64,000 nt of DNA from Microbacterium sp. MYb72 (GTDB taxonomy: Bacteria; Actinomycetota; Actinomycetes; Actinomycetales; Microbacteriaceae). The notes beneath the pieces are model-generated. The model did no database searches, was not told the origin of the DNA, and was given only the letters and a program-made list of their open reading frames with translations. Positions 4,432-60,742 of this stretch are shown here, one piece after another. The position numbers were made by a program, and so were the translations under genes. The stretch is from the NCBI RefSeq assembly GCF_002979415.1, contig NZ_PCOT01000023.1, positions 1-64,000 on the forward strand, in the 5' to 3' direction. The stretch's first letter is position 1. Each line of letters starts with the position of its first letter.

Positions 4432-5567
4432 TGGACCGCCGCTGCCCACTTCTCGCCGAGGAGCTTTCCGGCGTCGGCGGACTGCTTCTCGGTCGGGACG
4501 ACCGTCTTCTCCGGGGCCTCGGGGAGCTTCGCGAGGAGGTCCTTGTCGATCGTTCCGGCCTCGGTCATCGCGTCGACGCGCGCCGGGCGTGCGCCGCCCT
4601 TGAGCCACAGGTTCTGCACGTCGTCGCTGTACAGGAACTCCTGCCACAGGCGCGCGGCCGCCGGGTGCGGGGCGTCGGCGTTGATCGCCTGGTTGTAGTA
4701 GCTGGAGTAGCCGGTGCCCGGGAGGACGACGACCTTCCAGTTCTCGTTGTCCTTCTGGTGCGACGTGTTCAGGTAGTCCCAGTCGAAGACGACGGGCGTC
4801 TCACCGCTCGCGACGGTCGAGGTGGTCACGTCGACCTTGAGCAGGTTGCCGGCCTTCTGCAGCTTCGAGAAGAAGTCGATGCCGGGCTCGAAGTCGTCGA
4901 GGGTGCCGTCGGACTGCACGGTGGCGAGGCCGACCGCCGCGAAGGCCGCTCCGGCCTGCGTCGGGTCGCCGTTCAGCGCCACGGCGCCCTTGTAGTCGGC
5001 GCCGAGCAGGTCGTCGAGGGTCTTCGGGGCGTCGTACTTCGACGAGTCGTAGCCGATCGACATGTACCCGCCGTAGTCGCCGACGAAGAGACCCGTGGAC
5101 TCCTTGAGGTTGTCGGGGATCTCGTCCCACGTCTGCACCTTGTAGGGGGCGAAGCTCTTCGTGTTCTGCAGGGCGACCGCGATGCCGAGGTCGAACACGT
5201 CGGGTGCGGTGTCGAGGCCCTTGTTCGTCTCGGCGGCCTGGATCTCCTCGGCGCTGGACACGTCGGGGGAGGCCTCGTTGATGGTGATCTCCGGGTACTT
5301 CTTCGCGAAGAGATCGAGGATCTCGCCGTAGTTCGCCCAGTCGCGGGGGAGGGCGATGACGTTGAGCGCGCCCTCGGCCTTGGCTGCGGCCTCGAGGTCG
5401 GCGAACGTGCCGAAGTCGGAGACGGAGGTCGCGGATGCCGCGTCGACCTTGTCGCCGTCAGCGGCGGGAGCGTCGCCGCCGGATGCGCATCCGGCCAGGA
5501 CGAGCGCGGCCGTGGCGGCGAGGGCGATGCCGGCGCCGAAGCGGGCGCGGCGGGGGAAGTGTGCCAT
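4428..5567 (-). CDS. ABC importer solute-binding lipoprotein (extracellular family 1)
   Basis: 379 aa. Signal peptide MAHFPRRARFGAGIALAATAALVLAGC with lipobox LAGC (Cys26), so a membrane-anchored lipoprotein. The mature part is a family-1 binding protein (..GALNVIALPRDWANYG.. LFAKKYPEI.. FDWDYLNTSHQ..), the class that binds ferric iron, polyamines or similar small ligands. SD-like AGAGGA precedes ATG 5567. It is the first gene of the importer operon and should be the most abundant product. The lipobox region contains a second palindrome (5479-5494) made of GGATGC/GCATCC, likely an accident of that over-represented word. Substrate unknown. Confidence 0.9.
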   Translation of the reverse strand: MAHFPRRARFGAGIALAATAALVLAGCASGGDAPAADGDKVDAASATSVSDFGTFADLEAAAKAEGALNVIALPRDWANYGEILDLFAKKYPEITINEASPDVSSAEEIQAAETNKGLDTAPDVFDLGIAVALQNTKSFAPYKVQTWDEIPDNLKESTGLFVGDYGGYMSIGYDSSKYDAPKTLDDLLGADYKGAVALNGDPTQAGAAFAAVGLATVQSDGTLDDFEPGIDFFSKLQKAGNLLKVDVTTSTVASGETPVVFDWDYLNTSHQKDNENWKVVVLPGTGYSSYYNQAINADAPHPAAARLWQEFLYSDDVQNLWLKGGARPARVDAMTEAGTIDKDLLAKLPEAPEKTVVPTEKQSADAGKLLGEKWAAAVQ

Positions 5568-5715
5568 GAGGGTCCTCTCGGTGTCCGGCGCGGGTACGCC
5601 GGGTCGGGTTGCGAGTGGACGCTACGGGGTGGAGGTTGCCGATCGTCGCGGGTCGGGTGAACGACAGATGACCGGGTGGTGGCTGACGGATGCTGCGGGT
5701 CGGCTGACGCCCCGG

Positions 5716-5754
5716 GGAGAGGCGCCGCGGAGAGGCGCCGGGAAGAGGCGCCGG
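5716..5754. repeat. Three tandem 13-base repeats
   Basis: Three adjacent copies of GGAGAGGCGCCG(C/G), each holding the palindrome GGCGCC, lie directly after the GNAT stop codon. They are bracketed by CTGACGCCCCGG (5704-5715) and CCGGGGTCAG (5751-5760), which can pair and act as a terminator. The rest of the 189-base gap (5568-5756) holds the promoter of the importer operon; I see nothing else in it. Confidence 0.55.
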
Positions 5755-5756
5755 GG

Positions 5757-6272
5757 TCAGTCCTGAGGGATGCGGAGCTTGAAGCCCACGTGCGAGCCCG
5801 TGTAGCCCAGCCGCTCGTAGAAGCGGTGCGCGTCGACGCGGGCGGCATCCGAGGTGAGCTGGACCATCGCCGCATCCAGCGCGGGGGCCGCGGCATCCGC
5901 CACCCAGCGCATCATCGCCGACCCGATCCCCGATGAGCGCAGATCGCTCCGGACCCGGACGGCTTCGACGAGGAGCCGCCGTGCGCCGCGGCGGGCCATG
6001 CCGGGGATGGACGTCAGCTGCATCGTGCCGACGACGCGGCCGGCGAGCTCGACGACCACAAGGTCATTCGACGCCTCGGCGAGGATCTCTGCGAGGGCGG
6101 TCTCGTACGCGGGACGGTCCTCGGCCGAGGCCACGTCGCCCCGCGCCGCGCTGATCGGATCGTCGGAGAGCAGAGTGATGAGAGCATCCGCATCGTCAGC
6201 CGTCGCGCGCCTCAGCGTGGCCCGTCCGGCTCGGGATTCGAAGACGTGCGGCAGCGGCAGGGCGTCGAGCAT
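5757..6272 (-). CDS. GNAT-family N-acetyltransferase
   Basis: 171 aa. GNAT fold: N-terminal ATLRRATADDADALITLL, central strand VVELAGRVVGTMQLT, acetyl-CoA loop VRSDLRSSGIGSAMM (R/Q-x-x-G-x-G/A in the form RSSGIG), and C-terminal DAHRFYERLGYTGSHVGFKL. It probably acetylates a small-molecule amine; the substrate is not deducible. ATG 6272 is chosen because the GNAT fold starts immediately. No Shine-Dalgarno is present, but CAGACT lies 6 bases upstream as a -10 element, implying a leaderless mRNA. It is divergent from the TSUP gene with only 25 bases between starts. Confidence 0.85.
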   Translation of the reverse strand: MLDALPLPHVFESRAGRATLRRATADDADALITLLSDDPISAARGDVASAEDRPAYETALAEILAEASNDLVVVELAGRVVGTMQLTSIPGMARRGARRLLVEAVRVRSDLRSSGIGSAMMRWVADAAAPALDAAMVQLTSDAARVDAHRFYERLGYTGSHVGFKLRIPQD

Positions 6273-6297
6273 GCTCCCAGTCTGACATCCTGGGCGG
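6273..6297. promoter_or_regulatory. Back-to-back leaderless promoters
   Basis: The 25 bases between two divergent ATGs hold CAGACT on the minus strand (6284-6279) and CATCCT on the plus strand (6286-6291), each exactly 6 bases from its start codon. Neither gene has a Shine-Dalgarno sequence. The two polymerase footprints must overlap, and each -35 region must lie in the other's coding sequence. Confidence 0.55.
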
Positions 6298-7128
6298 ATG
6301 GACATCGGCGCTGTGCTCGGGCTGGAGCAGCTCACCTGGGGCACGCTGATCCTCGTCGTGATCGCCGCGTTCGCCGCCGGCTGGATCGACGCCGTCGTGG
6401 GTGGCGGCGGTCTGCTGCAGCTGCCCGCCCTGCTCCTGATCCCCGGGATGGCTCCGGTGCAGGCCCTCGCGACGAACAAGCTCGCCTCTGTCTTCGGCAC
6501 GGCGACGAGCAGCATCACCTACTACCGCAGGGCCAAGCCCGACATCCGCACGGCGGTGCCGATGGCGGTGATCGCGCTCATCGGGTCGTTCGGCGGGGCG
6601 GCGGTCGCGACGGTGCTCCCGTCCGCCGCGTTCAAGCCGATCATCGTCGTCGCGCTCTTGGCCGTGGCGCTGTTCACGGCCTTCCGCCCGCAGATGGGGG
6701 CCGCGACGCAGCTGCGCTTCAGCGGCCACCGGCATCACATCGCGGCGGGGGCGGCCGGCCTCGGAATCGGCTTCTACGACGGCATGATCGGCCCCGGTAC
6801 CGGCACGTTCCTCGTGATCACCCTGGTCGCTCTCCTGGGATACGACTTCCTGCAGGCGAGCGCGAAGGCGAAGATCGTGAACTTCGCGACCAACGCCGGG
6901 GCGCTGCTGCTGTTCATCCCGCACGGCTCGGTGCTGTGGCTGCTGGGCGGCATCCTCGCCGTCGCGAACGTGGCGGGGAGCTACCTCGGGTCGCGCATGG
7001 CCATCTCCCGCGGCACGACGTTCATCCGCGTCGTCTTCCTCATCGTGGTCATCGGCCTCATCGCGAAGCTCGGCGTCGACGTCTGGAACGAGAACATCGC
7101 CCCGGCGCTCGGCCTGCCCGGTCGGTGA
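6298..7128 (+). CDS. TSUP (TauE/SafE-type) membrane transporter
   Basis: 276 aa with about eight membrane segments. The two family repeats are visible: 'GWIDAVVGGGGLLQLPALLL.. ATNKLASVFGT' near residues 28-70 and 'GIGFYDGMIGPGTGTFLVI.. AKAKIVNFATNAGAL' near 158-205. This family exports or imports sulfonates, sulfite or other organic anions. It reads divergently from the GNAT gene. Its stop is followed by a REP-like element at the convergence with aspS. Substrate not assigned. Confidence 0.9.
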   Translation: MDIGAVLGLEQLTWGTLILVVIAAFAAGWIDAVVGGGGLLQLPALLLIPGMAPVQALATNKLASVFGTATSSITYYRRAKPDIRTAVPMAVIALIGSFGGAAVATVLPSAAFKPIIVVALLAVALFTAFRPQMGAATQLRFSGHRHHIAAGAAGLGIGFYDGMIGPGTGTFLVITLVALLGYDFLQASAKAKIVNFATNAGALLLFIPHGSVLWLLGGILAVANVAGSYLGSRMAISRGTTFIRVVFLIVVIGLIAKLGVDVWNENIAPALGLPGR

Positions 7129-7143
7129 GCGGCTCCCTGTCAC

Positions 7144-7237
7144 CGGTCGTTGAGCGAGGAGCGAAGCGACGAGACGAAACGCCCCATGCTCCGGGGAACA
7201 TGAGGCATTTCGTCTCGCTTCGCTCGCTCAACGACCG
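7144..7237. repeat. REP-like palindromic element, copy 1
   Basis: A 94-base imperfect inverted repeat: left arm begins CGGTCGTTGAGCGAGGAGCG, right arm ends CTCGCTCAACGACCG. The left arm carries small insertions relative to the right. It lies between the convergent TSUP and aspS stops. The first 39 bases are identical to the copy at 63540. A truncated third right arm (GTCGCTCAACGAGCGGG) follows near 7249. It may serve as a terminator here. Confidence 0.8.
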
Positions 7238-7285
7238 GGTGGCTGGGGTCGCTCAACGAGCGGGTGGTCGGGCGCCGTGCGAGGG

Positions 7286-9067
7286 TCAGGCCTCGTCGTC
7301 CTCCGGGACGAAGTCGACGCCGGCCTCGGCGCGCTGCTCGGGGCTGATGGGCGCCGGAGCCGAGGTGAGCGGGTCGAAGCCGCCGCCCGACTTCGGGAAG
7401 GCGATCACGTCGCGGATCGACTCGCTCTTCGACAGGTGCTGCAGCACGCGGTCCATGCCCAGCGCGATGCCGCCGTGCGGCGGTGCGCCGAACTTGAACG
7501 CGTCGAGCAGGAAGCCGAACTGCTCCTGTGCGACCTCGTCGCTGATGCCCATGACCTCGAACACGCGCTTCTGCACGTCTTCGCGGTGGATGCGGATCGA
7601 TCCGCCGCCGAGCTCGGAGCCGTTGCACACGATGTCGTACGCGTAGGCGAGAGCCGAGCCGGGGTCGGTGTCGAAGGTGTCCTCGAACTCGGGCTTCGGG
7701 CCCGTGAAGGCGTGGTGCACGGCGGTCCATGCCCCTGCGCCCACGGCGACGTCACCCGAGGCGACGGCATCCGCTGCGGACTCGAACATCGGAGCGTCGA
7801 CGACCCAGGTGAACGCGAATTCGTCCGGGTTCAGGTAGCCGAGGCGGCGGCCGATCTCGACGCGCGCGGCGCCGAGGAGCGCGCGGCTCTCCTTCGCCGA
7901 ACCCGCGGCGAAGAACACGCAGTCACCGGACTCGGCGCCGACGAGCGCCGCGAGCCCTGCCTGCTCGGCCTCGGACAGGTTCTTGGCGGCGGGGCCGCCG
8001 AGCGAACCATCCTCGTTGAAGAGCACGTAGGCGAGGCCGCGGGCGCCGCGCTGCTTGGCCCAGTCCTGCCAGGCGTCGAGCTGCTTGCGGGGCTGTGAGG
8101 CTCCGCCGGGCATGCGAACGGCGCCGACGTACTCCGCCTGGAACACGCGGAACGGCGTCTCAGCGAAGTACTCGGTGGCCTCGACGAGCTCCAGGCCGAA
8201 GCGCAGGTCGGGCTTGTCAGAGCCGTACTTCGCCATGGCGTCGGCGTACGTGATGCGCGGCAGCGGGGTCTGCACCTCGACGCCGATCGTCTTCCACATG
8301 GCGACGACGAGCGACTCCATGAGGGCGATGACGTCTTCCTGGTCGACGAAGCTCATCTCGATATCGAGCTGCGTGAACTCCGGCTGACGGTCGGCGCGGA
8401 AGTCCTCGTCGCGGTAGCAGCGCGCGATCTGGAAGTACTTCTCCACGCCGCCGACCATGAGCAGCTGCTTGAACAGCTGCGGCGACTGGGGCAGCGCGTA
8501 CCAGCTGCCCGGGTGCAGGCGCGCGGGCACGACGAAGTCGCGGGCGCCCTCGGGAGTGGAACGCGTGAGCGTCGGCGTCTCCACCTCGGTGAAGTCCTCG
8601 GCGTGCAGCACGTCGCGGATCGCCTTGTAGACGTTCGAGCGCAGACGCAGAGCGGATGCCGTCGCAGGACGCCGCAGGTCGAGATAGCGGTACTTGAGGC
8701 GAGCCTCCTCGCCCACGTTCTCGGTCTCGGCGAGAGCCGTGGAGACCTGGAACGGCAGCGGGGCCGACTCGTTCAGCACGACGACGTCGCTCGCGATGAG
8801 CTCGATCTCGCCGGTCGGCAGGTTCGGGTTCTCGTTGCCGTCCGGGCGACGCGACACCTCTCCGGTGACCTTGAGGACGAACTCGTTGCGCAGCGGGTGG
8901 GCCACCTCTTCGTCGCGGATGACGACCTGGGCGATGCCCGAAGCATCCCGAAGATCGATGAACGCGACTCCTCCGTGATCACGACGACGATCGACCCAGC
9001 CCGTGAGGGTGACGGTCTGACCGATGTTCTCGGCTCGCAGGGAGCCTGCGGAGTGAGTGCGAAGCAC
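7286..9067 (-). CDS. aspS: Aspartyl-tRNA synthetase
   Basis: 593 aa, the normal bacterial length. N-terminal OB-fold anticodon-binding domain ([23 protein letters not shown]), class II core with motif 2 ([17 protein letters not shown]) near residue 215, a GAD insertion in the middle (about 290-420), and motif 3 (GGIALGMDR) near 540. It charges tRNA(Asp) in the cytoplasm. The start is GTG 9067 with AGGAGGA 7 bases upstream; this SD sits inside GGAGGA-T-TCCTCC (9069-9081). Whether it is discriminating or also charges tRNA(Asn) cannot be settled without the rest of the genome. Confidence 0.97.
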
Positions 9068-32684: not shown

Positions 32685-35600
32685 ATGTCGCACCCCCGTC
32701 ACGCCCTCGACATCGAGGCCTTCGACCGCCCGGCCCGCTCGCAGGCGCTGCTGGATGCCGTGCACTCGCGCGTGGTCATCGCCGACGGCGCGATGGGCAC
32801 CATGCTGCAGCAGCACGATCTGTCTATCGAGGCCGACTTCCAGGGGCTCGAGGGGTGCAACGAGATCCTCAACGTCACCCGCCCCGACGTGATCGGCGGC
32901 ATCCATGACGCGTACTTCGCGACGGGCATCGACGCGGTCGAGACCAACACGTTCGGGGCCAACTGGTCGAACCTGTCGGACTACGGCATCGACGACCGCA
33001 TCCATGAGCTCGCCGAGCGCGGCGCGCGCATCGCCCGCGAGCGCGCGGAGGCCGCCGAGGCCGTGGACGGTCGCGTGCGCTGGGTGCTGGGGTCGATGGG
33101 GCCAGGCACCAAGCTGCCGACCCTCGGCCACACCACGTACGACCATCTCAAGCAGACGTTCGCGCTGCAGGCGGAGGGCCTGATCGACGGAGGCGCCGAC
33201 GCGTTCCTCATCGAGACCAGCCAGGACCTGCTGCAGACGAAGGCCGCGGTGAACGGATGCCGTCAGGCGATCGTGGCGCGCGGCATCCGTCTGCCGATCT
33301 TCGTCGAGGTGACCGTCGAGACCACCGGCACCATGCTGATGGGGTCGGAGATCGGCGCCGCGCTGACGGCGCTGGAACCGCTCGGGGTCGACGCGATCGG
33401 CCTGAACTGCGCCACCGGCCCCGCCGAGATGAGCGAGCACCTGCGCCACCTGTCGAAGCACTCCACGGTGCCGATCGCGTGCATGCCCAACGCGGGGCTG
33501 CCCGTGCTCGGCGCGAACGGCGCGCACTACCCGCTGACCCCTGCGGAGCTGGCGACCGCGCACGAGCAGTTCGTGCGCGAGTTCGGTCTGGGGCTGGTGG
33601 GCGGATGCTGCGGCACCACCCCCGAGCACCTCGCCGCCGTGGTCGAGCGGCTGGAGCCGTACCGCACCCGCGCGCTGACCACTCGCACGCCCGAGGTCGA
33701 GTCGGGCGTCGCGTCGCTCTACCAGCACGTGTCGTTCGATCAGGACGCCTCGTACCTCGCGATCGGCGAGCGCACGAACGCGAACGGCTCGAAGGCGTTC
33801 CGCGAGGCGATGCTGGAGGAGCGCTGGGACGACTGCGTCGAGATCGCCCGCAACCAGATCCGCGTCGGCGCGCACCTGCTCGACGTGTGCGTGGACTACG
33901 TGGGGCGCGACGGCGTCGCCGACATCCGCGAGGTCGTCTCGCGCTTCGCCTCGCAGTCGACGCTGCCGCTCGTGATCGACTCGACCGAGCCGCCCGTGAT
34001 CCAGGCGGGACTGGAGCTCATCGGAGGGCGCCCCGTCGTCAACTCCGTGAACCACGAAGACGGCGACGGCGCCGACAGCCGGTTCGGCCGCATCATGCCG
34101 CTCGTGAAGGAGCACGGCACCGCGGTCGTCGCGCTCACGATCGACGAACAGGGACAGGCCCGCACGACCGAGGGCAAGGTCGCGATCGCCTCGCGCCTGA
34201 TCGACTCGCTGGTGGGCGAGTGGGGCATGCGCGTGGAGGACATCATCGTCGACGCGCTGACGTTCCCGATCGCCACAGGCCAGGAGGAGACCCGGCGCGA
34301 CGGCATCGAGACGATCGAGGCCATCCGGCAGATCACGCAGAAGTACCCCGGCATCCACACCACCCTCGGCGTCTCGAACGTGTCGTTCGGGCTCAACCCC
34401 GCCGCGCGCATGGTGCTGAACTCGGTGTTCCTGCACGAGGCGTCGGAGGCGGGACTGTCGAGCGGCATCATCGACGCCGCCAAGATCGTGCCCCTGGCCT
34501 CGCTGCCCGAAGAGCAGCGCAAGGTCGCGCTCGACCTGGTGTGGGACCGCCGCGAGTACGACGTCGACGGGAACGTCACCTACGACCCGCTGTCGACCAT
34601 GCTCGACCTGTTCGCCGGAGTCGACACCGCGGCCCTGCGCGACCAGCGCGCCGCCGAGCTCGCGGCACTCCCCGTCGGCGAGCGGCTGGAGCGGCGCATC
34701 ATCGACGGCGAGGGCAAGGGTCTCGAAGCCGACCTCGACCTCGCACGTGCCGAGGGCAAGACCGCGCTCGGCATCATCAACGACCACCTGCTCGAGGGCA
34801 TGAAGATCGTGGGTGAGCGGTTCGGCGCGGGTGAGATGCAGCTGCCGTTCGTGCTGCAGTCGGCCGAGGTCATGAAGACCGCGGTCGCGCTGCTCGAACC
34901 GCACATGGAGAAGTCGGATGCCTCGGGCAAGGGCACCATGGTGATCGCGACCGTGCGCGGAGACGTGCACGACATCGGCAAGAACCTCGTCGACATCATC
35001 CTCACGAACAACGGCTACAGGGTGATCAACCTCGGCATCAAGCAGCCGATCGCCGACATCATCGCGGCGGCCGAGGAGCACGACGCCGACGTGATCGGCA
35101 TGTCGGGCCTGCTCGTGAAGTCGACCGTCGTGATGAAGGAGAACCTGCTCGAACTGCAGTCCCGCGGGCTCGCGAAGAAGTGGCCCGTGATCCTCGGAGG
35201 CGCCGCCCTCACTCGCGCCTACGTCGAGGACGATCTGGCGGGCATGTTCGACGGCGAGGTGCGCTACGCCAAGGACGCGTTCGAGGGGCTCGCGCTCATG
35301 GAGCCGCTCGTGCGGGTCGCGCGCGGCGAGGACCCCTCCGAAGTCGGACTGCCGGCGCTCAAGAAGCGCATCCACGCGCGCGGCGCCCAGCTCACGCTGA
35401 CGGAGCCCGAGGCGATGCCCGGCCGCTCCGACGTGGCATCCGACAACGAGGTCCCTGCGCCGCCGTTCTGGGGCACCCGCATCGTGCGCGGCATCGCGCT
35501 CGCCGACTACGCTGCCTTCCTCGACGAGCGCGCCACCTTCATGGGGCAGTGGGGTCTCAAGCCCGGCCGCGGCGAAGACGGAGCGTCCTACGAGCAGCTC

Positions 35601-36311
35601 GTCGAGTCCGAGGGGCGCCCGCGCCTGCGGTACTGGCTCGACCGGATCCTCGGCGAGGGGATGCTCGACGCCTCCGTCGCCTACGGCTACTTCCCTGTGG
35701 TGTCGGAGGGGGATGACGTCGTGGTGCTGCACCACGGCGACGACCCGACCGGCACCCTGGGCGTGCCCGGACTGCTCGCGCCGGACGGCGGATCGGGCGG
35801 CCCGCTCGGGTCGGACCGCCTGCGGTTCACGTTCCCGCGCCAGCGTCGCGATCGACACCTGGACCTCGCCGACTTCGTGCGCTCGCGCGAGTCGGGGCAG
35901 GTCGATGTGCTCCCCGTGCAGCTCGTCACCGCGGGCGCCGCGATCGACAAGGTCACCGCGAAGCTGTTCGCCGAGGACCGGTACCGCGACTACTACGAGC
36001 TCAACGGCCTCGTGATGCAGCTCACGGAGGCGCTCGCCGAGTTCTGGCACGCGCGCATCCGCTCCGAACTCGGCTTCTCGGCCGAAGACCCCACCGACAC
36101 GGCCGGTCTGTTCAAGCTCGAGTACCGTGGCGCCCGCTTCTCGCTGGGCTACCCCGCGTGCCCCGACATGGAGGACCGCCGCAAGGTCGTCGAGCTGCTG
36201 CGCCCCGAGCGCATGGGCGTCGAGCTCAGCGACGAGCTGCAGCTGCACCCGGAGCAGTCCACCGACGCGTTCGTGTTCCACCACCCCGAGGCGAAGTACT
36301 TCTCGGTCTGA
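32685..36311 (+). CDS. metH: Cobalamin-dependent methionine synthase (MetH)
   Basis: 1208 aa, full length with all four modules: homocysteine domain (1-330; zinc cysteines in GLNCATG and GGCCGTTPEH near 305), pterin-binding domain (about 345-630, starting YLAIGERTNANGSKAF), cobalamin cap and Rossmann module (650-880) with the axial His in RGDVHDIGKN near 760, and the AdoMet reactivation domain (890-1208) with RFSLGYPACPDMEDRR. It transfers the methyl group of methyltetrahydrofolate to homocysteine. TAGGCT (32673-32678) is 6 bases from ATG 32685, implying a leaderless mRNA and leaving no room for a cobalamin riboswitch. It converges on the ECF gene. Confidence 0.97.
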   Translation: MSHPRHALDIEAFDRPARSQALLDAVHSRVVIADGAMGTMLQQHDLSIEADFQGLEGCNEILNVTRPDVIGGIHDAYFATGIDAVETNTFGANWSNLSDYGIDDRIHELAERGARIARERAEAAEAVDGRVRWVLGSMGPGTKLPTLGHTTYDHLKQTFALQAEGLIDGGADAFLIETSQDLLQTKAAVNGCRQAIVARGIRLPIFVEVTVETTGTMLMGSEIGAALTALEPLGVDAIGLNCATGPAEMSEHLRHLSKHSTVPIACMPNAGLPVLGANGAHYPLTPAELATAHEQFVREFGLGLVGGCCGTTPEHLAAVVERLEPYRTRALTTRTPEVESGVASLYQHVSFDQDASYLAIGERTNANGSKAFREAMLEERWDDCVEIARNQIRVGAHLLDVCVDYVGRDGVADIREVVSRFASQSTLPLVIDSTEPPVIQAGLELIGGRPVVNSVNHEDGDGADSRFGRIMPLVKEHGTAVVALTIDEQGQARTTEGKVAIASRLIDSLVGEWGMRVEDIIVDALTFPIATGQEETRRDGIETIEAIRQITQKYPGIHTTLGVSNVSFGLNPAARMVLNSVFLHEASEAGLSSGIIDAAKIVPLASLPEEQRKVALDLVWDRREYDVDGNVTYDPLSTMLDLFAGVDTAALRDQRAAELAALPVGERLERRIIDGEGKGLEADLDLARAEGKTALGIINDHLLEGMKIVGERFGAGEMQLPFVLQSAEVMKTAVALLEPHMEKSDASGKGTMVIATVRGDVHDIGKNLVDIILTNNGYRVINLGIKQPIADIIAAAEEHDADVIGMSGLLVKSTVVMKENLLELQSRGLAKKWPVILGGAALTRAYVEDDLAGMFDGEVRYAKDAFEGLALMEPLVRVARGEDPSEVGLPALKKRIHARGAQLTLTEPEAMPGRSDVASDNEVPAPPFWGTRIVRGIALADYAAFLDERATFMGQWGLKPGRGEDGASYEQLVESEGRPRLRYWLDRILGEGMLDASVAYGYFPVVSEGDDVVVLHHGDDPTGTLGVPGLLAPDGGSGGPLGSDRLRFTFPRQRRDRHLDLADFVRSRESGQVDVLPVQLVTAGAAIDKVTAKLFAEDRYRDYYELNGLVMQLTEALAEFWHARIRSELGFSAEDPTDTAGLFKLEYRGARFSLGYPACPDMEDRRKVVELLRPERMGVELSDELQLHPEQSTDAFVFHHPEAKYFSV

Positions 36312-36343: not shown

Positions 36344-36381
36344 CGACGCCCGCTGGCAGACGTCAGCGAAGCGGGGCGTCG
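36344..36381. terminator. Hairpin at the metH/ECF convergence
   Basis: CGACGCCCGCT pairs with AGCGGGGCGTCG, with one bulged base and a loop of about 15 bases. It begins 33 bases after the metH stop and runs through the ECF stop codon. Confidence 0.5.
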
Positions 36382-39263
36382 ACGGCCAGGTGGGGCGTCG
36401 ACCGGGTACGGCGGGCCGCCACGGGCTTCGCGCGGCGGAGGGCGGTGAGCACGGGGCGGCCGATCAGCGCGACGCCCACGATCGTCGTGATCGCGCGCAG
36501 GGTGTCCCAGCCCGCGCTCGAGGTGACGAGCGAGTACAGCAGGAAGCTGCCGAGGTTCTGCCCGATCGGCGCACCCGGCGCGTAGGAGATGGCCGTGTCC
36601 GATCCGATCGCGAAGGGCCAGAACCACAGGTTCAGCAGCAGGCCGAACAGGTAGGAGGCGAGGGCTCCGTATGCGCACAGCATCACGATCTCGCCCCAGC
36701 CCCGGACCCTGCGGGGGAGGAGCCCTGCACCGGCTCCCACCCAGGCGCACGCGAACATCTGGAAGGGCGTCCACGGGCCGAACCCGCCGAACACGGTCGA
36801 CGACAGCAGGATGGTGGACACCCCGAGCAGCATGCCGAACCGGGCGCCGAACGTGCGACCGGCGAGCACGAGCAGGATGAACACGGCCTCGACGCCGCCC
36901 ACGCCGGTGCTCGCGATGCGCAGGGCCGTGCCGATCGCCGCGAGCACGCCGAGGTACGCGAGCACGTGCGCTGATCGCACGGTCTGGTCGAGGGCCGCGA
37001 CGGCGACGACCACGGCGATCGGCGCCAGCGCGAGAGCGACCCACGGGACCGCCGCGTCGGCCTGCGCGGGCACCGCCGCGGCGACGAAGGGCCAGGTGAA
37101 GGATGCCAGGGCCACGAGGTTCGCGGCGAGAAGTGTGAGCGGTGTCCAGCGCGCGGCGGGACGAGGAGCGGCAGACCCCGCCACGCGCCCACCGGTCACG
37201 CGCGGTGAACGAGCCGGAGCGGGGGCGCCGGCCACGGCATCCGCCGCTCGCGGATCCGTGCGCAGCGCCGCGTCGATCCGCGATGCACGGCTCTTGCCCG
37301 CCCGCTCGACGAGGGAGGGCAGAGACGGCGCTGCGACGGATGCCGGGACGATGCCGTCCCGCATCGGCAGCACCTTCGCGCCGAGTGCCGCCGCGAAGTC
37401 GGCGTCGTGCGTCGCCATGAGCACGGCGGCGCCGGCATCCGCCGCCTGCTCCAGCGCGGAGCGCACCTGCTCGCGGGCGCGGGAGTCGAGTCCGCGCGTG
37501 GGCTCGTCGATCATCAGCGCCTCGGGGGAGCGCGCGAGCTGCAGGGCGATCGCCAGGCACCTGCGCTCGCCGAGGGAGAGATCGCGGGGATGCCGCGGCA
37601 TCCGCTCTGCGAGACCTGCGGCGTCGAGGCTGAGGAATGCCGCGAATCGGTCGGCCGTGGACGTGGGGGAGTGGATGCCGTGCCGCTGCGCCGAGCGGTC
37701 GGCCCGCGCGCACTCGGCGGCGACGGTGTCGCGCGTGAACAGATCGTCGGAGGCGTCGGGGACGAGCACGGGGGCGCCGACGACCTCCAGGCCGTGCGGC
37801 GGCAGGGCGAGGGCCGTGAGCAGCGACGACTTGCCCGCGCCGTTCGGTCCGATCAGCGCGGCGATCTCGCCGTTCCCGAGAGCGAGGGAGGCGTCGTGCA
37901 CCGCGACGACGTCGCCGTGGGCGATGCGGACGTGCGACGCCGCGAGGACAGGCGACGGAGACGCTGACTGAGGGAGAGGGTCCGACGCGGTGCGGTGCGG
38001 TGCAGCTTCCGGAAGGATGACGTTCGGCGTCGCGCTGCGCTCGGTCGACCCCGTCGACACCGTGCCCTGCTCGATCGACCGCCACTCGTCGGCGACGCCG
38101 TCGAACGCGGCGGCCCTGTGCTCGGCGACGAGCACGCAGGATCCGCCCTCGTGAGCCAGAGCATCCAAGGCGGCGACGACGCGCACGCGCGCCTCTGCGT
38201 CCAGATCGGCGAGCGGCTCATCCACGAGCAGCAGGATCGGCTGCTCGACCACCGCGGCGGCGATCGCGACCATCGTCGCCTCCCCCGCGGAGAGCGTGTG
38301 CACGGAGCGGTCCCGCAGGCCGGCGATGTCCAGGCGCTCCATCACCTCGTCGACGCGGGCGCTCACGATCACGGCGGCGACGCCGCGCAGCTGCAGCGAC
38401 AGGCCGATCTCGTCGCGGACGAGCTCGCTGCAGAACGCCTCACGGGGGTTCTGCAGCACCACGCCGACCAGCCGCGAGGAGTCGCGCGGCGGCATCCGCC
38501 GTCGGTCCCGGCCTGCGACCTCGACGACGCCCGTCGACCAGCCCCCGTCGACGTGGTCCACGAGGCCGGCGAGCCCGCGAAGCAGCGTCGACTTGCCCGA
38601 GCCGGTCGGTCCGGTGACGACGGTGAGCGCTCCGGTGCCGAGGGCGAGCTCGGGCACCGTCAGCACCGCGTCGTCGCCGAACCCGAACGCCGCCTCCTGC
38701 AGCCGGACCGGGCTCGTGCACTCCCCGTCGACGGGGTCGCCGCCGAAGCCGCGCAGCTCCAGCCCGTTCGCGACGGCGGCGGCGCGTTCCAGGGTGCGTT
38801 CGAGCACCGGCACCAGCATCCGCGGTCCCGGCCTCTCGCCGCGAAGACGCTGGGCGGTGTGCACCGTGCGAACGGCCTGACCGAGCCCGGGGAGCGTGGA
38901 CCAGGCGACGGCGAGAGCACGGGCGATGCCGCGCAGCGGACCGCGCCTCGCGAGCAGCCCGAACGCCCTGGACACGTCGAAGATCGCGTTCAGCAGCCCG
39001 AACAGCAGGATGACGGCGGCGATCGGCAGTGCGGACAGCGCGGCATCCGCGAGCCCGTCGACCGTCACGGGGCCGAGGAGTGTCACCCAGCTGAACGGCG
39101 CGGGGAGGCGGATCGCGGGCAGAGGGAGCAGCACCGGGCCGCTGCCGGCGGCTCCGTTGAAGAGCACGCGGTAGAGGATGCGGGCGACGACGAACACCGC
39201 CGCCAGCCCCGCCGCCGCGCGCAGCGGGCCGGGTCTCAGTCTGAGCCGGCCCGCATCGCTCAC
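36363..39263 (-). CDS. Single-polypeptide ECF transporter (EcfT-EcfA-EcfA-EcfS fusion)
   Basis: 966 aa carrying all four parts of an energy-coupling-factor importer in one chain. Residues 1-180: EcfT-like membrane part ending in the coupling segment ANGLELRGFG. Residues 185-400: first ATPase (Walker A GPTGSGKST 218-226, signature LSAGE 324-328, Walker B LLLVDEP 344-350). Residues 440-640: second ATPase (GPNGAGKSS 472-480, LSLGE 562-566, LMIDEP 583-588). Residues 705-945: six-helix substrate-capture (S) part. GTG 39263 overlaps the DUF4430 lipoprotein stop (GTGA). ECF systems import vitamins; the neighbours metH and DUF4430 favour cobalamin, but the S part itself does not prove it. Confidence 0.9.
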   Translation of the reverse strand: MSDAGRLRLRPGPLRAAAGLAAVFVVARILYRVLFNGAAGSGPVLLPLPAIRLPAPFSWVTLLGPVTVDGLADAALSALPIAAVILLFGLLNAIFDVSRAFGLLARRGPLRGIARALAVAWSTLPGLGQAVRTVHTAQRLRGERPGPRMLVPVLERTLERAAAVANGLELRGFGGDPVDGECTSPVRLQEAAFGFGDDAVLTVPELALGTGALTVVTGPTGSGKSTLLRGLAGLVDHVDGGWSTGVVEVAGRDRRRMPPRDSSRLVGVVLQNPREAFCSELVRDEIGLSLQLRGVAAVIVSARVDEVMERLDIAGLRDRSVHTLSAGEATMVAIAAAVVEQPILLLVDEPLADLDAEARVRVVAALDALAHEGGSCVLVAEHRAAAFDGVADEWRSIEQGTVSTGSTERSATPNVILPEAAPHRTASDPLPQSASPSPVLAASHVRIAHGDVVAVHDASLALGNGEIAALIGPNGAGKSSLLTALALPPHGLEVVGAPVLVPDASDDLFTRDTVAAECARADRSAQRHGIHSPTSTADRFAAFLSLDAAGLAERMPRHPRDLSLGERRCLAIALQLARSPEALMIDEPTRGLDSRAREQVRSALEQAADAGAAVLMATHDADFAAALGAKVLPMRDGIVPASVAAPSLPSLVERAGKSRASRIDAALRTDPRAADAVAGAPAPARSPRVTGGRVAGSAAPRPAARWTPLTLLAANLVALASFTWPFVAAAVPAQADAAVPWVALALAPIAVVVAVAALDQTVRSAHVLAYLGVLAAIGTALRIASTGVGGVEAVFILLVLAGRTFGARFGMLLGVSTILLSSTVFGGFGPWTPFQMFACAWVGAGAGLLPRRVRGWGEIVMLCAYGALASYLFGLLLNLWFWPFAIGSDTAISYAPGAPIGQNLGSFLLYSLVTSSAGWDTLRAITTIVGVALIGRPVLTALRRAKPVAARRTRSTPHLAVDAPLR
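39224..39254 (-). promoter_or_regulatory. Hairpin at the DUF4430/ECF junction
   Basis: GCGGGCCGG and CCGGCCCGC enclose a smaller CTC/GAG stem with loop AGTCT. The element starts 5 bases after the lipoprotein stop codon and lies in codons 4-14 of the ECF gene. It occupies the same position as the hairpins at the other lipoprotein/membrane junctions here. Confidence 0.55.
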
Positions 39264-39808
39264 GACGCGGGTGCGGCGGGAGCGCCGTTCAGCGTGAAGA
39301 GCAGCTCGACGCTGTCGCCGGGGTTGAGCTCGAGGGCGGAGAGACCCGTCTGCGCGTAGTCCCACGTGCCGCCTGCGGGCTTGACCCACAGGCCCCAGTA
39401 CGCGGCGGCCGGAGGCATGTCGGCGCAGGTCTCGTGGTAGGCGGCGCCGTCGTCGCCGGTCAGCTCGGTGTCTTCGGCGGGCACGCCGTTCACACGGCAG
39501 ATCACGTCGTCGGGGTACGTCGTGGTGCCGACGGTGGTGAACCCGGCTTCGGAGACGGCATCCGTCCCCAGGATCTTCCCGTCCGTGTCGACGCAGACCG
39601 AGGCGGAGGGATCGTCGGAGACGTCGAGGTCGCCCGTGTCGACGACCACGGTCACCCCGGCGCACGACTCAGCAGACGCGGTCGACGAGGACGACGGCGA
39701 CGACGTGGGCTCGGAGGAGGGCGTCGGCGGCGTACAGGCGGTCAACGCGAGCGTCAGGGCGGATGCCGCGACGAGGGACAGGGCGAGGTGGCGGGTCTTC
39801 GGGGTCAC
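39260..39808 (-). CDS. DUF4430 (transcobalamin-like C-terminal domain) lipoprotein
   Basis: 182 aa. Signal peptide with lipobox LTAC (Cys25), then a Pro/Ser/Thr linker, then a DUF4430-like domain from about residue 50: CAGVTVVVDTGDLDVSD near its start, AAYWGLWVKPAGGTWDYAQTG and a final LNPGDSVELLF. DUF4430 is related to the C-terminal half of the animal cobalamin carriers intrinsic factor and transcobalamin. GTG 39808 is the start, with TAGGGT 6 bases upstream and no Shine-Dalgarno. Its stop overlaps the ECF start, so the pair is one system: this protein probably captures ligand outside the membrane for the ECF S domain. Confidence 0.8.
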   Translation of the reverse strand: MTPKTRHLALSLVAASALTLALTACTPPTPSSEPTSSPSSSSTASAESCAGVTVVVDTGDLDVSDDPSASVCVDTDGKILGTDAVSEAGFTTVGTTTYPDDVICRVNGVPAEDTELTGDDGAAYHETCADMPPAAAYWGLWVKPAGGTWDYAQTGLSALELNPGDSVELLFTLNGAPAAPAS

Positions 39809-57568: not shown

Positions 57569-58398
57569 GCTCCCGTCGGTCTGTCATGTCGAGGGTCGGC
57601 ACCGGCGTCGCGATCGCCGCCGTCCTGATCTTCACCCTGTTCCCGGTGTACTGGATGGTCTCCAGCGCCCTCGACGCCAAGGCGTCCAGCGGCGGGCAGT
57701 CGCTGCTGCCGCAGGAGTTCAGCCTCGAGAACTTCGAGTTCGTGCTCACCGACGGCGGCTTCGGCACCTACCTGCGCAACTCGGCGATCGTGGCCCTGGT
57801 CACCGTCCTCGTCAGCGCGCTGGTCTGCCTGCTCGCGGCGGTCGCCGTCGCCCGGTTCCGCTTCAAGTTCCGCACCACCATCCTCATGATGATCCTCGTG
57901 GTGCAGATGGTGCCGCTCGAGGCGCTCGTCATCCCGCTGTTCCTCCAGGTCAAGAGCCTCGGGCTGCTCAACAGCATCCTGGGTCTGATGGTCGTCTACG
58001 TGGCGCTCTCGCTCGCCTTCGGCATCTGGATGCTGCGCGGCTTCGTCGCCGCGGTCCCGGTCGAGCTCGAGGAGGCCGCGTACATCGACGGTGCGAGCTG
58101 GTGGCGGATGTTCCGCTCGATCCTGCTGCCGCTGGTCATGCCCGGCCTCGTCGCGACGAGCATCTTCAGCTTCATCACGGCGTGGAACGAGTTCATCTTC
58201 GCCATGACGATCCTCGGCAGCGCGACCGACCAGTACACGGTGTCGATCGGACTCAAGTCGTTCTTCGGCCTGCACTCCAACGACTGGGGCAGCATCATGG
58301 CCGCGTCGACGATCATCACCATCCCGGTCATGATCTTCTTCGTGATCGTGCAGCGCCGCCTCTCGGCCGGCATGGTGGCGGGAGCGGTGAAGGGATGA
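57565..58398 (+). CDS. Sugar ABC importer permease (MalG-like)
   Basis: 277 aa, six membrane segments, with the EAA loop VELEEAAYIDGASWWRMFRSILLPLVMPG near residue 170 and the C-terminal AWNEFIFAMTIL motif of MalG-type permeases. GTG 57565 overlaps the previous stop (GTGA) and has AAGGAGG at 8 bases. It pairs with the preceding permease in the sugar importer, and its own stop overlaps the nagZ start (ATGA). Confidence 0.92.
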   Translation: MSSRRSVMSRVGTGVAIAAVLIFTLFPVYWMVSSALDAKASSGGQSLLPQEFSLENFEFVLTDGGFGTYLRNSAIVALVTVLVSALVCLLAAVAVARFRFKFRTTILMMILVVQMVPLEALVIPLFLQVKSLGLLNSILGLMVVYVALSLAFGIWMLRGFVAAVPVELEEAAYIDGASWWRMFRSILLPLVMPGLVATSIFSFITAWNEFIFAMTILGSATDQYTVSIGLKSFFGLHSNDWGSIMAASTIITIPVMIFFVIVQRRLSAGMVAGAVKG

Positions 58399-59864
58399 GC
58401 GACGACCTCACCCGCCTCGCCAACGGCGTGCTCTGGCCGGGCTTCTTCGGCACGACGGCCCCCGCGTGGCTCCTGGAGGAGCTCCGCGATGGTCTCGCCG
58501 GCGTCGTCTACTTCGGTCAGAACATCAGCGACGATCTCGCCTCCCTCAGCGAGGAGATCCTCGCCGCCCGACCGGACGCGCTGATCGGCATCGACGAGGA
58601 GGGCGGCAGCGTCACCCGCCTCGAGACGGCCACGGGCTCCACCCTCCCGGGGGCGGCTCAGCTCGGACGCCTCGACGACGTCGCGGCGACCGAGGCCACC
58701 GGCGCCGAGCTCGCACGACGCGTGCGTGCGATCGGCGGCAACGTCGTCCTCGGACCGGTCGCCGACGTGAACACCGACCCGCGCAACCCCGTGATCGGCG
58801 TCCGCTCCTTCGGCAGCGACGAGCAGCTCGTCTCCCGGCACACGGTGGCGGAGGTGCGCGGCATCCAGAACGGAGCGGTCGCGGCCTGCGTCAAGCACTT
58901 CCCCGGTCATGGGGACACCCACCTCGACTCGCATCATTCGCTTCCCGAGATCGCCCTGCCGGTCGAGGAGTTCGAGCGCGTGCACCTCGAGCCGTTCCGC
59001 GCCGCAATCGCCGCCGGCGTCGACACGATCATGACCGCGCACATCGTCGTCCCCGCATGGGGCGAGCGGCCGGCGACCCTGAATCCGCGGGTCCTGGGGA
59101 TGCTGCGCGACATGGGCTTCGAGGGCGTGATCATCACCGATGCGCTCGACATGGCCGCGATCCGCGAGACCGTCGGCATCGGCGGGGGAGCAGCCGAGGC
59201 GCTGGCCGCCGGAGCCGACCTGCTGTGCATCGGAAACCCGACCAACCCGGGCGAGGCCGCGCTTCCCGACCAGGATCTCCGCGACTTCCTCGCGGCGCGC
59301 GACGGCATCGTCGCCGCTCTCCGCGACGGCTCGCTGTCGGAGGAGCGGGTCCGTGAGGCCGCGGGTCGCGTCGCCGCGCTCGCCGCGAGACTGCGGGAGG
59401 CGGATGCCGTACAGGTCGCCGACTTCGACGCGGCCGAGGTGGTCCGCAGGGCCGTCGCCGACGCGGGCGTCGCACCGGCATCCGCTCTCTCCGTCGTCGA
59501 TGCGCGCCGCCGCTCGTCGCTCGCCGTCGACAGCGCTGCGGGCTATGTCGCCGCAGCGCTGGCCGGCGACGGCCACCGGGTGCGGCTCGACGTGGCGAGC
59601 ACCGGCGTCGAGGAGCAGGATGCCGCGCTGGACGCGGCGGTCGCCGCCGAGGGCACCACGGTGATCCTCGTCGACCGCCCCGACGCCGATCCGGCGCAGC
59701 GGGCCCTCGTGGAGCGCGCAGCGCAGCGCGATACGGCCGCCGTCGCCGTCAACGTCGGACTGGCCGCCGAGCGCCCGCTGGCACTGCCCACCGTCGAGGT
59801 GGGAGCCGCGAGTCGCATCGGGGCTCTGATCGCCAGGGAGACGCTGCTCGGCCGCGTAGGCTGA
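58395..59864 (+). CDS. nagZ: Glycoside hydrolase family 3, NagZ-type beta-N-acetylhexosaminidase
   Basis: 489 aa. NagZ-type signature CVKHFPGHGDTHLDSHHSLP (residues 166-184), including the Asp-His dyad peculiar to NagZ, and the nucleophile Asp in IITDALDMAAI near 249. After the barrel, residues 360-489 form an additional C-terminal domain. There is no signal peptide, so it acts in the cytoplasm on sugars brought in by the coupled importer. Expected reaction: release of N-acetylglucosamine from muropeptide- or chitin-derived disaccharides. The coupling ATGA with the permease ties the two strongly. Confidence 0.88.
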   Translation: MSDDLTRLANGVLWPGFFGTTAPAWLLEELRDGLAGVVYFGQNISDDLASLSEEILAARPDALIGIDEEGGSVTRLETATGSTLPGAAQLGRLDDVAATEATGAELARRVRAIGGNVVLGPVADVNTDPRNPVIGVRSFGSDEQLVSRHTVAEVRGIQNGAVAACVKHFPGHGDTHLDSHHSLPEIALPVEEFERVHLEPFRAAIAAGVDTIMTAHIVVPAWGERPATLNPRVLGMLRDMGFEGVIITDALDMAAIRETVGIGGGAAEALAAGADLLCIGNPTNPGEAALPDQDLRDFLAARDGIVAALRDGSLSEERVREAAGRVAALAARLREADAVQVADFDAAEVVRRAVADAGVAPASALSVVDARRRSSLAVDSAAGYVAAALAGDGHRVRLDVASTGVEEQDAALDAAVAAEGTTVILVDRPDADPAQRALVERAAQRDTAAVAVNVGLAAERPLALPTVEVGAASRIGALIARETLLGRVG

Positions 59865-59878
59865 GCGCGGAGGCCACC

Positions 59879-60742
59879 GTGGACGCTGACGTTCTCGCAC
59901 TGGTTCGGCGATCCCTTCCTCGGTTGAGCGCCGCCGAAGCGAGGGTCGCCGACACGATCCTGGGCGACCCGACGCTCGTCGTCGACCTCGCGATCAACGA
60001 CCTCGCGAAGCTGTGCCGCACCTCGGTCTCCACGGTCGCCCGCTTCGCGCAGTCGCTGGGCTTCAGCGGCTATCGCGAGCTGCGGGTCGCCGCCGCGCGC
60101 ACGATCACCCTCGCGCAGGCCCAGCAGGCGCGCTTCGGCCTCGACACGACGGCGATCGACCCGGAGGACGGGCCCACGGCGATCGGCGCGAAGATCGCCG
60201 CGCAGGAGATCGACGCGATCGAGAAGACGGCGCTGGGCGTCGATGCCGAGGCGCTCGACAGGGTCGCGCGCGCGGTCGTGGCGGCTCGCCACATCGACGT
60301 CTACGGGCAGGCGGCCTCGTCGCTCACCGCGCAGGATCTGCAGCAGAAGCTCGCGCGGATCGGCTGCTCGGTGGCGCACTCCGCCGATCCGCATCTGGCA
60401 CTCACCACGGCGTCGCTTCGCACATCCGACGACGTCGCGATCGCGTTCTCGCACGGCGGGGAGACCGCTGAGGTGGTGCGCGCGGTGGAGGTCGCCAGGG
60501 ATGCCGGCGCGCTCACGGTCGCCGTCACGAGCGTCGAGGAGTCGACGCTCGCCCTCGCCGCCGACGTGGTGCTGCTCACCCACGCGCAGGAGTCGCCCTT
60601 CCGGATGGCGGCGATGTCCAGCCGCATCGCACAGCTCGTGCTCGTCGACATCCTGTTCGTCAGGGTCGTGCAGCATCGCGGACTGCCCGTCGTGATCCCG
60701 CTCCAGCTGACGCACGACGCCGCGACCCGCCGAGGGCGCTGA
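59879..60742 (+). CDS. MurR/RpiR-family transcriptional regulator
   Basis: 287 aa. N-terminal RpiR helix-turn-helix (VADTILGDPTLVVDLAINDLAKLCRTSVSTVARFAQSLGFSGYRELR, residues 24-72) and C-terminal SIS sugar-phosphate-binding domain (about 120-250: DVYGQAASSLTAQDLQQKLARIG, DVAIAFSHGGETAEVVRAVEVARDAGA). In family members the effector is a phosphosugar such as MurNAc-6P or GlcNAc-6P. GTG 59879 follows GGAGG. It probably controls the importer-nagZ operon, and the kinase next door would make its ligand. Confidence 0.93.
   Translation: MDADVLALVRRSLPRLSAAEARVADTILGDPTLVVDLAINDLAKLCRTSVSTVARFAQSLGFSGYRELRVAAARTITLAQAQQARFGLDTTAIDPEDGPTAIGAKIAAQEIDAIEKTALGVDAEALDRVARAVVAARHIDVYGQAASSLTAQDLQQKLARIGCSVAHSADPHLALTTASLRTSDDVAIAFSHGGETAEVVRAVEVARDAGALTVAVTSVEESTLALAADVVLLTHAQESPFRMAAMSSRIAQLVLVDILFVRVVQHRGLPVVIPLQLTHDAATRRGR

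Follow-up and report, generated by a model that had tools for sequence, protein, structure and literature searches.

A one-chain energy-coupling factor transporter between a lipoprotein gene and metH in Microbacterium sp. MYb72, a likely cobalamin importer

Energy-coupling factor (ECF) transporters combine two ATPases (A and A′) with a T component and an S component, normally as three or four proteins. Both the joining of two ATPases in one polypeptide and group I modules with a dedicated S component are already known (PMC6828968, PMC5037267). T components are described as having four membrane helices in BioN and five in NikQ, CbiQ2 and EcfT (PMC6828968), and expulsion of S from the motor is debated, with a possible difference for group I (PMC10368641, PMC12075633). 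Transcobalamin-like SLBB proteins encoded in operons with CbiO and CbiQ were proposed in 2007 to serve B12 scavenging in organisms without key B12 synthesis enzymes (Burroughs et al., PMC1796856). Here we describe a gene of Microbacterium sp. MYb72, within a 64,000-nucleotide stretch of contig NZ_PCOT01000023.1 (the window), that encodes T, A, A′ and S as one 966-residue chain. It is very probably a one-chain dedicated (group I type) ECF cobalamin importer that arose by two fusions, receives its substrate from a lipoprotein, keeps S on a tether and provides cofactor for the B12-dependent methionine synthase MetH. A T-A-A′-S fusion was not found described in the literature searched; the tables of Rodionov et al. 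2009, outside that search, may list such fusions.

A single reading frame for T, A, A′ and S

A sequence-only reading of the window had proposed a whole transporter in one 966-residue chain and left the strand unstated. The chain is confirmed on the minus strand, where the frame runs uninterrupted from a GTG at 39263 to the stop codon at 36363-36365; the plus-strand reading of 36363-39263 is broken by stops. The mechanically called open reading frame (ORF) extends to 39665 (1100 amino acids). GTG at 39263 fits best as the start of the fused gene because it overlaps the stop of an upstream lipoprotein gene by four bases (GTGA) and marks where the alignment of orthologues begins. The parts are as follows.

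36363..39263, minus strand: fused ECF transporter T-A-A′-S, 966 amino acids, GTG start at 39263
38739..39263, minus strand: reduced T component, residues 1-175 (Pfam, AlphaFold2 model, motifs)
38013..38717, minus strand: ATPase A, residues 183-417 (Pfam, fold comparison, motifs)
37344..37949, minus strand: ATPase A′, residues 439-640 (Pfam, motifs)
37161..37343, minus strand: Ala/Pro/Arg-rich tether between A′ and S, residues 641-701 (alignment, AlphaFold2 model)
36423..37160, minus strand: S component, residues 702-947 (alignment, AlphaFold2 model, motifs)

A domain search of the translation found a CbiQ-like T and two ABC_tran stretches (Pfam, E 5.8e-37), and S was identified by alignment to unfused S proteins. 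The AlphaFold2 model of the whole chain (mean predicted local distance difference test score, pLDDT, 80.6; predicted template modelling score, pTM, 0.80) gives the same order, with two membrane-length helices, two long coupling helices, A, A′, a disordered stretch at 644-701 and helices at 703-945, the last predicted at modest confidence.

An ortholog search of 58 whole genomes, including 35 of the genus, returned full-length orthologues in seven other genus genomes and two of another family. In each of the nine, T-A-A′-S forms a single frame, preceded by the lipoprotein gene and followed by metH on the opposite strand. A scan of named genomes confirmed 580 relatives, of which the best 80 were kept as loci, so that the gene-state frequencies given here are not frequencies in nature. 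All four domains were present in 73 of these 80 (L071, L086, L100, L101, L110, L118 and L120 were left out), and G050, a relative on a short contig, stands outside the comparison of operon structure. The nine genome orthologues partly overlap the one-gene named loci (for example, at L042 and L068).

Frameshift, readthrough or an assembly error might have joined genes that are truly separate, as the same parts are in other Actinomycetota. However, this survey of actinobacteria found one frame and the same order in 9/9 genome orthologues and in 23 of the 73 complete named loci, those 23 loci form a single clade in the S tree, and codon-position GC is steady along the chain. At third positions GC is 0.87-0.98 in 60-codon blocks, but 0.73 in the Ala/Pro/Arg-rich linker and 0.71 over the final few codons; the source genome is in 67 contigs and 99.99% complete. 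We regard such a joining error as vanishingly improbable. Assembly artefact, frameshift and chance are ruled out by the presence of the same fusion in independent genomes.

Stepwise fusion, reduced T component and altered ATPase pair

The 73 complete loci comprise 23 one-gene, 13 two-gene (T-A-A′ and a separate S) and 37 three-gene systems (T, A-A′ and S). Fourteen of the one-gene loci are from Microbacterium, seven from Arthrobacter or Pseudarthrobacter and two from Agromyces. In a tree of S domains (74 rows), where the nearest neighbor of the window is Microbacterium mangrovi (79% identity), these states need two changes, the minimum possible, compared with a mean of 31 after shuffling. The split between three-gene and other systems has supports of 100/100 and the one-gene clade 95/96. 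This sequence comparison shows that T, A, A′ and S were joined through two successive gene fusions, from three genes to two and from two to one. Two-gene systems of Agromyces agglutinans (L083) and Glaciibacter flavus (L072) branch beside the one-gene clade and already have Asp at the A′ Q-loop; they are likely intermediates toward the one-gene form. Another locus, L085, on a contig of a metagenome-assembled genome labelled Acidobacteria, groups with Microbacteriaceae two-gene systems and is probably a binning error.

The Micrococcaceae one-gene sequences nest within the one-gene clade of Microbacterium, with supports of 87/80 and 92/79, which suggests horizontal transfer of the fused gene between families. 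These fused copies (L056, L062-L065, L076 and L104) keep the lipoprotein in 7/7 cases and metH in 6/7, a pattern suggesting that the whole cassette passes from one family to another together. A plasmid search with the A′-S half matched five records, none covering 80% of the query, the best being an Arthrobacter record. In a sample of 150 family genomes the S domain occurs in 29, five of which, the window among them, carry it within an open frame longer than 1000 codons; this is consistent with fusion but falls short of proof.

Judged from sequence and model, T in the fused chain is shrunken and not a full T component. Hydropathy gives T regions of 323-410 residues with 4-8 hydrophobic segments in the three-gene loci and of 177-216 residues with 2-3 segments in the two- and one-gene loci (two segments in 13 and three in 10 of the one-gene loci; two in 12 and three in one of the two-gene loci). 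In the window, membrane helices are predicted at residues 11-34 and 68-94 and coupling helices at 111-140 and 147-170. The coupling helices carry two Arg-containing xRG motifs (QRLRG and ELRGF), in which R and G are invariant at both sites across the 23 one-gene loci. The CbiQ-like PF02361 match covers T residues 43-175 (E 4.6e-5; 23.6 bits in one scan and 26.9 in the other, the family cut-off being 25) and begins at position 66-68 of the 216 in the model, so that the retained T corresponds to the CbiQ model from about that point onward. The entire transporter claimed by the sequence-only reading was not borne out for the T membrane part: about two membrane helices and the coupling helices remain, short of the four or more that are usual for a T component, though not a defining feature of it.

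With so few predicted membrane helices, the 966-residue chain might instead work as a homodimer in which two short T parts form the scaffold, making the ratio of S to motor other than that of a simple 1:1 monomer, and crosslinked BioN dimers are reported for a group I system (PMC3246461). Each chain already has two ATPases, however, and the pTM of the monomer suggests a defined single-chain arrangement. We consider the homodimer unlikely, although it is the most credible of the alternatives to a one-chain cobalamin importer that are weighed in this study.

The two ATPases keep Walker A, Walker B and the H-loop (GPTGSGKST, LLLVDE and H382 in A; GPNGAGKSS, ALMIDE and H619 in A′), with catalytic Glu and H-loop His in both. 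To this extent the motifs are intact as previously described, but the signatures are non-canonical (LSAGEA, 38277-38294, in A; LSLGER in A′), and the Q-loop Gln, present in A as Q271, is replaced in A′ by Asp (D503, 37755-37757). At the A′ Q-loop position all 37 three-gene loci encode Gln (CAG or CAA) and all 23 one-gene loci Asp (GAT or GAC); of the 13 two-gene loci, 11 have Glu (GAG) and two, L072 and L083, have Asp. An alignment-based count agrees with this codon count save for one gapped row each in the two-gene and one-gene groups. The signature of A is LSGGQQ in 36/37 three-gene loci and LSAGEA in 11/13 two-gene and 23/23 one-gene loci. In the usual sandwich geometry of ATP-binding cassettes, the A′ Q-loop belongs to the same ATP site as the A signature. 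Because the changes from Gln to Glu to Asp in the one and from LSGGQ to LSAGEA in the other meet there, one composite ATP site of the A/A′ pair looks degenerate at the sequence level.

The S domain shares 41-47% identity with four unfused S proteins. By our count it has about eight hydrophobic helices, a six-helix core preceded by two others that are also present in the aligned unfused relatives; the earlier description of a six-helix S does not hold as worded. Among seven aligned S rows scanned, three match PF12822, two PF07155 and four TIGR04518, and the row of the window matches none of them. S helix 1 of ECF transporters carries a small-xxx-Ala motif (PMC11109136, PMC5037267), and the window S has an AxxxA-type AIGTA in the helix that we read as helix 1. 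Both Ala positions are kept in 23/23 one-gene loci; the second is Ala in only 9/13 two-gene and 23/37 three-gene loci.

Since the S domain belongs to the motor chain itself, a dedicated rather than shared module is supported, as the sequence-only reading had implied. Its further claim, one S per motor, would hold for a monomer, as against domain swapping or homodimerisation. Taken as a whole, that reading was right about the order of the parts, the module and, with the exceptions above, the motifs, and was not supported, as worded, in calling parts complete.

The tether is predicted to be disordered (pLDDT below 50 over 644-701), and the gap between A′ and S, taken between the edges of hidden Markov model (HMM) matches, ranges from 22 to 234 residues in the 23 one-gene loci. 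Such a loose and variable segment might be cut after synthesis, freeing S as in other ECF systems. No sign of cleavage was seen here, cleavage motifs not having been searched for, and two-gene relatives already make a separate S, so that fusing and then cutting would bring little gain. We consider cleavage quite improbable.

Lipoprotein, metH and the likely substrate

The transporter gene lies between two genes that bear on its substrate.

39260..39808, minus strand: lipoprotein, 182 amino acids (ORF, stop overlapping the transporter start at GTGA; AlphaFold2 fold)
32685..36311, plus strand: metH, B12-dependent methionine synthase (TIGR02082, 1343 bits), convergent with the transporter gene

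The lipoprotein has LTAC at residues 22-25, which we take to be lipobox-like. Its AlphaFold2 model (pLDDT 80.7) predicts a transcobalamin/intrinsic-factor-type beta domain at residues 50-174. In the VIA fold list, rows 1-14 are transcobalamin, intrinsic factor and haptocorrin (Z 9.4-10.2, root-mean-square deviation 2.5-3.0, 92-99 residues) and row 15 is a Ruminococcus gnavus protein (PDB 3u7z, Z 9.4). There is then a drop to Z 5.8 at row 16, an OPX protein; the OPX class and transcobalamin-like domains have been placed in one superfamily, SLBB (PMC1796856). The top seven Foldseek matches are all transcobalamin (probability 1.00). A lipoprotein HMM match, no more than 5 kb away and in the same orientation, accompanies 23/23 one-gene, 13/13 two-gene and, by our count, 32/37 three-gene loci, with some scores in the three-gene loci as low as 24 bits. 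One unfused operon, L045, has adjacent separate genes for an alpha-toroid-like protein (4798-6525), matching the SCO2321 family and Prenyltrans under cut-off, and a beta-domain-like protein (6525-7367). This pair resembles the two halves of transcobalamin, of which only the beta half is seen beside the fused transporter.

Convergent metH lies downstream in 21/22 one-gene, 12/13 two-gene and 0/34 three-gene loci, counting those with informative sequence (one one-gene and three three-gene loci have too little downstream). Among the 35 genus genomes, three of which are less than 90% complete, the set with MetH over its cut-off and the set with the fusion are exactly the same eight. Agreement of this kind would arise at random once in 23.5 million, a figure overstated by relatedness and physical linkage. 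None of the 35 matches CbiC, methylmalonyl-CoA mutase or the PF01923 (PduO-type) adenosyltransferase. Likewise, no NrdJ match (TIGR02504) exceeds the cut-off in the genus; most genomes give a weak match and seven of the 58 one over cut-off, and the weak matches are read as other ribonucleotide reductases. Of the three B12-dependent enzymes sought in the window genome (MetH, methylmalonyl-CoA mutase and NrdJ), MetH alone was found, and it is the likely user of the imported cofactor.

Regulatory evidence comes from the unfused relatives. All six three-gene operons examined, from the same order, have an RF00174 cobalamin-riboswitch match at the operon start, and in each a long ORF starts no more than 150 nt away. 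The one at L045 is probably spurious; the ORF of the alpha-toroid-like protein starts 75 nt downstream. Taken together, the transcobalamin-type lipoprotein, the convergent metH, the co-occurrence with MetH and the riboswitch matches at unfused operons make cobalamin the likely substrate of the fused transporter.

A corrinoid precursor such as cobinamide might be imported in place of cobalamin: transport of cobinamide too is reported for CbrT in 2018 (PMC5997447), and the unfused operon L049 adjoins CobQ and CbiB genes that exceed their cut-offs and a CobU-type gene that falls just short of its own. However, neither CbiC nor PF01923 was matched in the 35 genus genomes (CobU, CobS and CobC not having been searched for in the window genome), and an organism using B12 only in MetH would be best served by finished cobalamin. 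We judge a precursor improbable as the substrate. The PF02361 match in T, a "cobalt transport protein" family, could also point to a cobalt importer of the CbiMQO kind. This we consider highly improbable and reject, because the genus, with no CbiC match, shows no sign of the cobalt-requiring de novo B12 synthesis, the S rows match vitamin S-component families, with CbiM not among the three Pfam families listed, and a transcobalamin-type lipoprotein is present.

Several observations weigh against a one-chain ECF cobalamin importer. No NCBIfam ATPase model reaches its cut-off for the fused chain, the ranking being FtsE first (169.8 bits against 264.85), cbiO second and TIGR04521 third (168.8 against 330), with TIGR04520 among the 25 best models and far under its cut-off; FtsE chains also tie with ECF ATPases in the fold comparison. 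As the FtsE, cbiO and ECF models score nearly alike, the assignment to the ECF class relies on T, S, the order of parts and context, not on the ATPases. The window S domain matches no Pfam or NCBIfam model, PDB sequence searches with S and lipoprotein profiles gave nothing meaningful, and whole-chain fold searches were filled by matches to the ATPase domains. The T region of 10 of the 23 one-gene loci has a third hydrophobic segment. The lipoprotein of the window has no Pfam match at E up to 1 and no NCBIfam match, 20 aligned relatives gave no convincing Pfam match, its Foldseek matches have E values of only 5e-3 to 2.5e-2 and query TM (template modelling) scores of 0.35-0.40, and a shared transcobalamin-type fold by itself shows no function. 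The window genome also encodes MetE, loci L056 and L084 lack MetH within about 10 kb of downstream sequence, and the co-occurrence and adjacency of MetH are one linked event, not two proofs. Five of the six RF00174 matches fall under the Rfam gathering score, which only L046 reaches. No riboswitch was found at that score in the window or in seven fused loci (L035-L041), nor, under stricter filters, in the 35 genus genomes, and riboswitch control of the fused gene is rejected.

Further CbiQ-family T components occur elsewhere in the window genome (L001, L002 and L003 on contigs C2, C4 and C45; 89, 70.6 and 58.1 bits), and other ECF systems, by these matches, probably coexist with the fused one. 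Away from the transporter, the window has two long overlapping ORFs on opposite strands, 57996-59900 (minus) and 58101-59864 (plus), with near-equal codon-position GC.

Proposed transport cycle and comparison with described systems

We propose that the lipoprotein, anchored on the outside, would catch cobalamin with its transcobalamin-type beta domain and pass it to S. Held to the motor by the disordered tether of about 60 residues, S would then topple onto the reduced T, at its coupling helices, and release cobalamin inside the cell, where the cofactor would serve the MetH encoded next door. The A/A′ pair, by binding and hydrolysing ATP, would reset the transporter. The tether would allow S to move and yet hold it to its own motor. 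S termini of ECF transporters are on the cytosolic side (PMC12075633), a placement consistent with S coming after A′ in one chain, and a T of two helices would keep the T-A junction cytosolic. We tentatively suggest, as a possibility somewhat short of even, that the cycle is completed without release of S, which would rock on a two-helix T driven by an ATPase pair with one degenerate site. If so, S expulsion would be a trait of shared modules and not of ECF transport itself, and most of the T membrane domain would be dispensable.

The fused family offers a minimal T component and a natural test of whether S must leave the motor for transport, in a system whose S is joined covalently to the motor and probably serves the vitamin that ECF-CbrT also carries. 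Living two- and three-gene relatives make the fusion, the shrinkage of T and the Q-loop change each testable step by step. The locus brings together a transcobalamin-type domain, a one-chain importer and a B12-using enzyme as a bacterial B12 cassette.

ECF-CbrT of Lactobacillus delbrueckii (PMC5997447) shares with the fused chain the ECF class, the parts A/A′, T and S, and a likely common substrate. It belongs to group II, and its S, a free protein, has its module in common with other S components, whereas S of the fused chain is covalently tied to its own. Fused S and CbrT are likened here by description, a PDB profile search with the fused S family having listed no ECF S component. The operons of Burroughs et al. 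(PMC1796856) likewise combine a surface beta-grasp protein of B12-binding type with ECF parts, but have CbiO and CbiQ as separate genes, in contrast to the beta-domain-only lipoprotein, one-chain transporter and metH linkage of the window. YkoEDC, a group I thiamine ECF transporter (PMC5037267), resembles the three-gene relatives in its dedicated S and two fused ATPases; its T, A-A′ and S are three proteins, and its T has a membrane helix H5 and so is not of the two-helix kind. The same order of parts is seen in the unfused Actinomycetota operons of T, A-A′ and S with head genes of the SCO2322 and SCO2321 families (NF040672 and NF053823; of two loci tested, L049 exceeds the NF040672 cut-off and L045 matches both models under cut-off). 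They differ in a longer T, in Gln at the A′ Q-loop (37/37) and in having no metH in the 4-10 kb of downstream sequence of the 34 informative loci. Against these systems the fused chain is a conserved and functionally placed variant of a known transporter class, in which the stripped T and altered motor are more unusual than the fusion alone.

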